A stretch of DNA of 64,000 nucleotides from Salinibacterium sp. SWN167. GTDB lineage: Bacteria; Actinomycetota; Actinomycetes; Actinomycetales; Microbacteriaceae. Where the stretch lies: assembly GCF_015864665.1 (NCBI RefSeq), contig NZ_JADYWU010000001.1, positions 1,798,001 to 1,862,000 of the forward strand, read 5' to 3'. Numbering within the stretch: the stretch's first letter is position 1; each line of letters opens with the position of its first letter. Below the pieces are notes generated by a model. It saw only the letters and a program-made list of their open reading frames with translations. It made no database searches and was not told where the DNA came from. Position numbers and translations under genes: made by a program. This document shows, piece after piece, positions 35,464-37,605 of this stretch.

Positions 35464-35514
35464 TTGCCGTACCTTGGATACGGAGGTCATTTCTGAACTC
35501 CGAGAAAGGCTCCA

Positions 35515-36264
35515 ATGTCTGGCACTGAGTGCATCCACGGCTTCGAAAACGGTCTCTGCGATTCCTGCTTTCCTAAGGCTGTCCCTGTCAAGCCGGTAAC
35601 GCGTGCCACTACCTCTTCTCGCACTAAGCGAGTTCCCGGCACTCCGCGCGCGTCGAGCGCGAAGGTCCCGTCGTTGTCGGACCAACGTGTCTATCACGTC
35701 ACGCACATCAGCAACTTGGAGAGCATCCTCCGCGAGGGTCAGCTTGTCGCTGCTGCGTCAATTGAGGATGCGATTCTCGACATCAGTTCGCCCTTGACCC
35801 GCGAGCTTCGCGGCGCAGCATCGCTCAGCACCGGCGAGCCCGTTGACCGCTACGTTCCGTTCAGCTTGGTGCCAGAGTCCGCAGCCTGGCGTGAACTGCG
35901 TGCCGGAGCATCGGAACCGCGCTGGTCAGACGCGGCCCGCACTGCAACACCCACAGATTTCGTGTTCCTCGTCAGCACCGTTCGCGCTCTCGGCGAGGAT
36001 GCCGTTCTGGCCGATGGCGATGCCGCAGCAAGTCTGACTCGCTTTGCCACAGACGAAAAAGCCATCACTCGGATGCTCGGCAACCTGCGTGCCGATGAGC
36101 TCACCGACGACGCTGAGGTTCTTATTCACGGCTCCTTCGCTTTCGATGATGTGCAACTCGTCGGAGTCGCGAGCGATAAAGCTCGCGAGCGTGTGAAGTC
36201 GCTCCTCGATGGCGCCTCGTTTAAGACGAAGGTGGCTGTGTATCCACCATGGTTCATTCAGTAA
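35515..36264 (+). CDS. DarT-like ADP-ribosyltransferase with N-terminal zinc motif
   Basis: Protein of 249 aa. The N-terminus has ECIHGFENGLCDSCFP, a compact Cys/His zinc-binding pattern, followed by a basic linker. The main domain matches the DarT/DUF4433 family: VYHVTHISNLESILREGQL (NAD-binding start), DRYVPFSLVPESAAW, and DDAEVLIHGSF, whose Glu corresponds to the catalytic glutamate of DarT. DarT enzymes ADP-ribosylate thymidines in single-stranded DNA and are normally neutralised by a macrodomain protein DarG; none is nearby. AGAAAGG precedes the ATG. A housekeeping or defence role is open. Confidence 0.72.
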   Translation: MSGTECIHGFENGLCDSCFPKAVPVKPVTRATTSSRTKRVPGTPRASSAKVPSLSDQRVYHVTHISNLESILREGQLVAAASIEDAILDISSPLTRELRGAASLSTGEPVDRYVPFSLVPESAAWRELRAGASEPRWSDAARTATPTDFVFLVSTVRALGEDAVLADGDAAASLTRFATDEKAITRMLGNLRADELTDDAEVLIHGSFAFDDVQLVGVASDKARERVKSLLDGASFKTKVAVYPPWFIQ

Positions 36265-36273
36265 AGTTCGCGG

Positions 36274-36285: not shown

Positions 36286-37605
36286 ATGACCAACGACTTT
36301 TCGCTTCACCCTGTTGATCCCACGTCGGCTGCTGCCCTCGCTGCAAGTGGATTGCGCTACGACTTAGTCGATACGTCGAACCGTGCTGCATTCGAGGCCT
36401 GGTTTCAAGCGGATTCCCGTGGTTTTCACGGTCCGGCCATGTCAAAAGAACAGGTCGATTCTAATTTTGCCGGCGTGACGTATCGCCGCACGATCGGTGT
36501 GTGGGATGACCACTTGGTCGCCCCGGAAATTCCTGTAGCGACAACAAGCTCCTGGACCGAGCAACTCACCGTTCCGGGCGGTCAGAGCATTGATGCGTGG
36601 GCTATCAGCTCCGTCACTGTCTCGCCGACGCATCGTCGCCGTGGCATCGCGCGTTCGCTTCTCGAAGGGGAATTGCGCTCGGCGGCTGCGATGGGGCTGC
36701 CGATGGCGATGCTCACCGTGTCGGAGTCGACGATCTACGGCCGTTTCGGATTCGGTCAAGCCGTGTTCGCTGCTGATCTTACGATCGATACGACTCGGGC
36801 TTCGCTCGTGGCTCATGAGCGCCGTGGCACTCTGCAGCACGTGGCACCCTCCGTCTTCGTCAGCGAAGCACCTGCGGTGTTTGAACGTGTCCGGCTGGCC
36901 ACTCCAGGACAAATCGCCGTGTGGCCGCTGCGCTGGGAGCAGATCGCCGGCACTGCGCCCGGCGATGAGGAGTACACCAAGAACACCCGCGTGGTGCGAT
37001 TCGATGACGAGAGCGGAACGCCGCGCGGATTCGTGGTATATCGCGTGAAGGATGGCGGAGCCGACTTCACTCACCACAAGCTCACGGTCGACTACCTGCT
37101 GGCTGAGACCCCCGAGGCCTACGAGGCCTTGTGGCGTTTTGTGCTTGAGGTCGACCTCGTGCGTGAGGTGAAAGCCGAGCTACGCTCCGTCGATGAACCG
37201 TTGCTGTGGCTTCTGTCCGACATGCGTGCCGCTCAGGTTTCCCCGATTGATCACTTGTGGTTGCGCATCCTTGATGTGCCCGCGTCGCTCACCGCCCGGA
37301 CGTATTCGGGTGCCGCCGAGCTCGGTTTTGATGTCAACGATGACCTCGGCTTCGCCCACGGCCGCTTTGTGCTTTCGACAGATGAGGGTGGGATGCCGCA
37401 GGTGCGCGCGGTAGAAGAGCTTCCCGCCACGATTGCTTCAGTTTCGCTGTCGGTCAATGAACTCAGCTCGCTGTATCTCGGTGGAGTCACCGTGTCAGCG
37501 CTGGTTGCTGCCGGCCGCATTACGGAATTGACCGAAGGCGCTGCGGCGGTGGTGGAGCGTGTATTCCACGCGCCGACCACGCCGTGGTTGAGCATCTGGT
37601 TCTAG
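36286..37605 (+). CDS. Eis-type GNAT N-acetyltransferase
   Basis: Acetyltransferase of 439 aa with the three-part Eis architecture: an N-terminal GNAT domain with the acetyl-CoA loop VSPTHRRRGIARSLL, a second degenerate GNAT domain, and a C-terminal sterol-carrier-like domain. The protein ends ...LSIWF; in Eis enzymes the free C-terminal Phe carboxylate acts as catalytic base, and a C-terminal Phe is present. Family members acetylate amines, including aminoglycosides; this one's substrate is unknown. Leaderless start at ATG 36286. Confidence 0.87.
   Translation: MTNDFSLHPVDPTSAAALAASGLRYDLVDTSNRAAFEAWFQADSRGFHGPAMSKEQVDSNFAGVTYRRTIGVWDDHLVAPEIPVATTSSWTEQLTVPGGQSIDAWAISSVTVSPTHRRRGIARSLLEGELRSAAAMGLPMAMLTVSESTIYGRFGFGQAVFAADLTIDTTRASLVAHERRGTLQHVAPSVFVSEAPAVFERVRLATPGQIAVWPLRWEQIAGTAPGDEEYTKNTRVVRFDDESGTPRGFVVYRVKDGGADFTHHKLTVDYLLAETPEAYEALWRFVLEVDLVREVKAELRSVDEPLLWLLSDMRAAQVSPIDHLWLRILDVPASLTARTYSGAAELGFDVNDDLGFAHGRFVLSTDEGGMPQVRAVEELPATIASVSLSVNELSSLYLGGVTVSALVAAGRITELTEGAAAVVERVFHAPTTPWLSIWF

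Follow-up and report, generated by a model that had tools for sequence, protein, structure and literature searches.

DarT enzymes are familiar as toxins which a cell tolerates only together with DarG or NADAR, and both DarT and the DarTG pair are already well known. The window analyzed here, a 64,000-nt stretch of the genome of Salinibacterium sp. SWN167, carries a stand-alone gene for a DarT-like ADP-ribosyltransferase of 249 amino acids (35515..36264; this and all other features given below lie on the + strand), which raises the question of what such an enzyme does where no DarG is found beside it. The gene was defined from its open reading frame, with ATG as the start codon, and from profile matches, a structural model and orthologues.

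The DarT domain (PF14487) makes up the last 190 residues of the protein (35686..36255), as assigned from Pfam and structure matches. In the Pfam search, residues 60-247 matched the whole profile with 75.4 bits (E-value 6.8e-21; curated cut-off 22.5 bits), and the same family was matched by 47 of 47 diverse relatives. The DarT profile of PADLOC gave 81.5 bits and the NCBIfam equivalog toxin_DarT (NF048013) 64.3 bits, below the required 150 bits. Among solved structures, Thermus DarT2 and M. tuberculosis DarT are closest in sequence. An AlphaFold model, for which 47 family members served as input, reached a mean pLDDT of 89.4. Searched against the PDB with Foldseek, the best eight matches of this model were all DarT entries, with Thermus DarT2 at the top (E-value 9e-16, TM 0.79) and DarT1 much weaker (E-value 1.5e-5, TM 0.60); matches in a viral structure library were weak and of low overlap. 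Chance likeness to DarT is ruled out by the E-value of 7e-21, the whole-profile match and the fold search. By profile and model, the predicted protein is thus of the DarT fold and not of an unrelated one, as an earlier note on this DNA had proposed from the letters alone and as the Pfam score and the structure comparison bear out.

The residues that handle NAD+ are in place. The NAD-binding motif HxTHxxN (35695..35715) puts H61, T63 and N67 at the positions of H13, T15 and N19 of Thermus DarT2, which are assigned to the NAD ribose (PMC9967889), and residues H61-L72 read HVTHISNLESIL. R99 (35809..35811) and E201 (36115..36117), the latter within AEVLIHG, align with R51 and E160, the catalytic residues of DarT2 (PMC9967889); the Thermus crystal construct in the alignment is an E160A mutant. 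All five residues are invariant in 47/47 dereplicated diverse orthologues, and their equivalents are common to the control DarTs and the Microbacteriaceae family. NAD+ chemistry therefore looks preserved in the window protein, to judge from its sequence. The NAD-binding start and the catalytic Glu in AEVLIHG, both claimed in the earlier note, hold up after alignment, and the catalytic Arg is also there. The protein shares these residues, the fold and an aromatic C-terminal end (WY/WF) with the DarT2 of DarTG2 (Thermus sp. 2.9 / T. aquaticus; M. tuberculosis Rv0059). With the guanine-specific DarT1 of DarTG1/DarT-NADAR (E. coli C7) it shares the superfamily and the catalytic Arg (R52 in DarT1) and Glu (E152) (PMC11543638), but it differs in the much lower fold match and in the partner, as no NADAR, adjacent or elsewhere, was found in the host genome or in any of 200 Microbacteriaceae genomes.

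The substrate side of the protein looks rebuilt when its sequence is compared with DarT2. For this, 24 family members were set against 9 controls (DarG-paired DarTs and the Thermus structure), with residue roles drawn from PMC9967889 and PMC11543638. Where DarT2 has the thymidine-locking H119, the alignment places D169 of the window protein (36019..36021). Asp is found at this position in 24/24 family members and 0/9 controls, all of which have His or Asn, and in 45 of the 47 orthologues; a small number of the family's most divergent members have another residue there. A124-W125 (35884..35889) takes the place of M78-L79 of DarG-paired DarTs: relative to the controls, M78 is lost and L79 is changed to Trp in all 24 members compared, the Trp being invariant in the family. 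Both Y71 and M78 are named in the DarT2 mechanism, Y71 stacking on the nicotinamide (PMC9967889), and the equivalent of Y71 is variable in the family (F, Y, S, Q or H). Also new are conserved arginines (R96, R129, R176 and R224), and the C-terminal end has PPW in 24/24 members, PPWF being a further difference from DarT2. The window protein accordingly lacks the thymidine-specific residue set of DarT2 (Y71, M78, and His or Asn at 119); base choice is not readable from position 119 alone, with controls carrying either His or Asn.

A further difference from DarT2 lies at the N-terminus, where residues 5-20 (ECIHGFENGLCDSCFP) precede a linker and then the catalytic domain. They contain the motif C6-x-H8-G9-x5-C15-xx-C18-x-P20 (35530..35574), a putative zinc site that is invariant in relatives; from the motif, C6, H8, C15 and C18 may bind a metal, presumably zinc. 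CxHG-x5-CxxC is found in 31/31 sequences of the first relative set (alignment A1) and in 81/81 sequences overall, window included; these relatives were gathered via the DarT domain alone (Pfam for the first set, two domain peptides for the second), and their start codons were picked afterwards with the Cys/His motif in mind. The Cys/His cluster described in the earlier note is therefore a constant of the family. A DNA pattern coding for the motif occurs once in the host genome, the alignment shows no such tag in DarG-paired control DarTs, and in the Pfam search no family, zinc domains included, covered the motif. The AlphaFold model, which contains no metal, gives the tag region pLDDT values of 71-83, and the Ala/Pro/Arg/Ser-rich linker (35575..35682), variable in length in alignment A1, with the lowest values (55-67).

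DarG, SCO6735 and TARG1 macrodomains are the reversal enzymes among which a partner would be expected. No DarG or macrodomain gene was found near 35515-36264 among the open reading frames of the window searched with Pfam, and the host genome (3.0 Mb, 99.9% complete) contains neither a macrodomain nor a NADAR. Across 80 related loci, flanks of about 8 kb held no DarG, MacroD or ADP-ribosylglycohydrolase (ARH). In the positive control, a DarG-sized gene lay directly downstream of 8/8 DarT genes taken from plasmids and one phage (seven regions in detail, plus Tolypothrix). PF01661 recognized 7/7 control DarGs scanned, with 81-97 bits; therefore the search is able to see DarG, and a macrodomain search blind to it is ruled out. 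An adjacent antitoxin overlooked by annotation is likewise ruled out, as no neighbouring gene recurs from genus to genus and DarG, MacroD and ARH are all missing within reach. The absence of DarG from the neighbouring genes, noted earlier from the window, thus extends to the genome and to the related loci, and the genome-wide macrodomain search proposed at the time came back empty. The adjacent macrodomain DarG that defines a DarTG toxin-antitoxin pair is missing here, against 8/8 for the control DarTs. The host genome does have exactly one ARH (PF03747; C1:171280), 1.66 Mb from the DarT-like gene. This ARH (L124 1745-3160; G000:C1, about 171 kb) has a weak dual-specificity-phosphatase-like C-terminus, with PF00782 below cut-off, and its gene is flanked by HD-type and PHP-type genes.

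In the window, a LysR-like gene, a DUF5997 gene and a gene for a GDSL/GAF protein lie upstream of the DarT-like gene, and genes for an Eis-like GNAT (36286-37605) and an M18 aminopeptidase lie downstream. The five closest Salinibacterium-type loci (L032-L036) share this gene order; it breaks up in other genera, across which no neighbour is conserved. Conservation of upstream motifs points to CGTACCTTGGA (35468..35478) as the probable -10 element of the gene's own promoter: 41 of 47 sequences have GTA[ACG]C[CGT]T in the 160 nt upstream of the gene, with 0.03 expected. The conserved -10-like element fits an independently transcribed DarT-like gene. In most genera, the DarT-like gene is preceded by a TAnnnT-type -10 with conserved flanks (CGTAnCnTTGA-like), and in the window such an element also precedes the Eis-like GNAT gene, at 36272. 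A RecA-NDp or LexA-type damage promoter was considered and set aside, the element being, by eye, a TAnnnT-type -10 without RecA-NDp spacing. An operon with the Eis-like GNAT is unlikely, since the GNAT gene is preceded by a separate -10-like element near its ATG and in many genera is located elsewhere or on the opposite strand.

Half of the sampled Microbacteriaceae genomes (100/200) carry the DarT-like gene. Among genera with at least two visible genomes (only about half of the non-carriers being assigned to a genus), presence is all-or-none in 43/46, vs at least 18 mixed genera in each of 2000 shuffles, and dN/dS within genus is 0.01-0.07. A branch with a support of 100/100 separates the Microbacteriaceae proteins from DarG-paired DarTs, in a tree without the ARH- and NADAR-associated DarT-like proteins, which are too long-branched to place. 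At the level of the order, a PF14487 scan over 149 genomes found only three genomes of other families with any PF14487 gene; these genes are DarT-like but distinct from that of Microbacteriaceae, and one or more of them is paired with an ARH. A recent mobile or defence gene is ruled out by the genus-level presence, the conserved locus in L032-L036 and the dN/dS values. By these sequence comparisons, what had appeared as a single odd orphan is a stable chromosomal gene of Microbacteriaceae under purifying selection.

Several individual loci deserve mention. Two actinobacterial genomes from separate families (L118, G169:C1:3344000-3351000; L132, G340:C10) have a different DarT-like gene next to an ARH gene and a UvrD-like helicase gene, possibly a DarT system with ARH in place of DarG. 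In another family of the order (L130, G234:C7), a DarT-like gene adjoins an open reading frame for what may be a NADAR-type hydrolase, making this locus a candidate DarT1-type pair. The Microbacteriaceae DarT-like gene, amid neighbours of Microbacteriaceae type, also turns up on a contig labelled as an Acidobacteria MAG (L071), probably through a binning or labelling error. Two Lacisediminihabitans changchengi contigs (L046, L047) have the DarT-like locus with identical neighbour order and spacing, either as an assembly duplicate or as a real duplication.

What, then, does the enzyme do? It could still be a DarT2-like growth-arresting enzyme that modifies thymidine in ssDNA and serves in defence against phages or in arrest under stress; in the absence of DarG, it would be held in check because it is little expressed, because of its N-terminal tag or because it is triggered only during infection. 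Its closest fold is indeed DarT2, with R51/E160 and the NAD residues kept and 81 bits to the PADLOC DarT profile, and PMC9503650, citing LeRoux 2022, describes DarTG as a phage-defence system. However, the thymidine-holding H119 and M78 are uniformly replaced, the gene is fixed by genus under strong purifying selection, unlike patchy defence genes, and the genes around it in the window serve ordinary metabolism and regulation rather than forming a defence island. We consider this reading unlikely. The form in which the earlier note had put it, a thymidine toxin that has lost its antitoxin, is not supported by the comparison with a genus-stable separate family that scores 64 bits where 150 are required and does not keep H119, M78 or Y71. 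Alternatively, the system may be split, with an unlinked hydrolase reversing the ADP-ribosylation: the ARH in the host, a MacroD-type macrodomain in other genera. That the host has exactly one PF03747 protein would suit this, as would the accessory DarT-like genes adjoining ARH (L118, L132) and the presence of Macro or ARH in 69/100 carriers vs 39/100 non-carriers. These association figures ignore relatedness, as does that for macrodomains (37/100 carriers vs 18/100 non-carriers, p 0.004); ARH, present in 44/100 carrier genomes, is not significantly associated when taken alone (p 0.11). The macrodomains of carrier genomes are unlinked to the DarT-like gene, the nearest being 30 kb away, unlike DarG in DarTG. 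Moreover, macrodomain, ARH and NADAR, the three hydrolase families known, are all absent from 31/100 carriers, NADAR being absent from all 200 genomes, and we regard a split system as quite improbable.

A target outside nucleic acids is more doubtful again. A protein-modifying ADP-ribosyltransferase whose Cys/His tag recruits the target protein would be in keeping with the loss of the base-reading residues and with an invariant tag and linker that resemble a docking module, but the DarT-family members characterized so far modify DNA bases (PMC11543638), and the conserved R129, R176 and R224 suit nucleic acid as well as protein. Least probable among the alternatives is a catalytically dead protein that uses the DarT fold to bind NAD or nucleic acid: although Y71 and M78 of the DarT2 mechanism (PMC9967889) are not kept, R99, E201 and the residues for NAD do not vary in any of the 47 sequences, which is unexpected for a pseudoenzyme.

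Our preferred interpretation, which we hold with slightly better than even confidence, is that of a domesticated, active DarT-fold mono-ADP-ribosyltransferase with a cellular role, an altered target and a Cys/His docking tag, and not of a thymidine toxin-antitoxin module. A fixed, selected gene with intact NAD+ chemistry and an altered site fits a recruited enzyme better than a toxin without antitoxin. The enzyme would bind NAD+ in the DarT manner, R99 and E201 would polarize and cleave it, and the ADP-ribose would be transferred to a target other than ssDNA thymidine, be it another base, RNA or, less likely, a protein. Asp169, Trp125 and the new arginines R96, R129, R176 and R224 may shape the new site, while the CxH...CxxC tag on its flexible linker may bind a metal and, as a small element for docking or for binding nucleic acid, guide the enzyme to its target. 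It would be tolerated without antitoxin if the target or the activity does not block growth, or if the adduct is handled by general repair. More tentatively, we suggest a specific version in which this antitoxin-free family marks a non-thymine base or RNA physiologically, with the metal-binding tag steering the enzyme and the mark put to regulatory use. Two observations stand against a recruited enzyme: DarT is toxic in E. coli when expressed without its antitoxin (PMC5179494), which would make an active antitoxin-free relative surprising, and the commoner macrodomains in carriers would be in line with some lineages having an unlinked partner. The earlier suggestion that the protein might be tamed, have another target or rely on a distant hydrolase was right in direction, and another target fits best; the distant hydrolase is not general because nearly a third of the carriers have no known one.

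A literature search of partial coverage found no DarG-free DarT family and no DarT with a Cys/His tag. If the preferred interpretation is true, PF14487 or PADLOC matches in Microbacteriaceae genomes should not be scored as DarTG defence systems. Nucleic-acid ADP-ribosylation would then have been recruited for an ordinary cell function across a bacterial family, and, on the more tentative version, regulatory nucleic-acid ADP-ribosylation would exist outside toxin-antitoxin systems.
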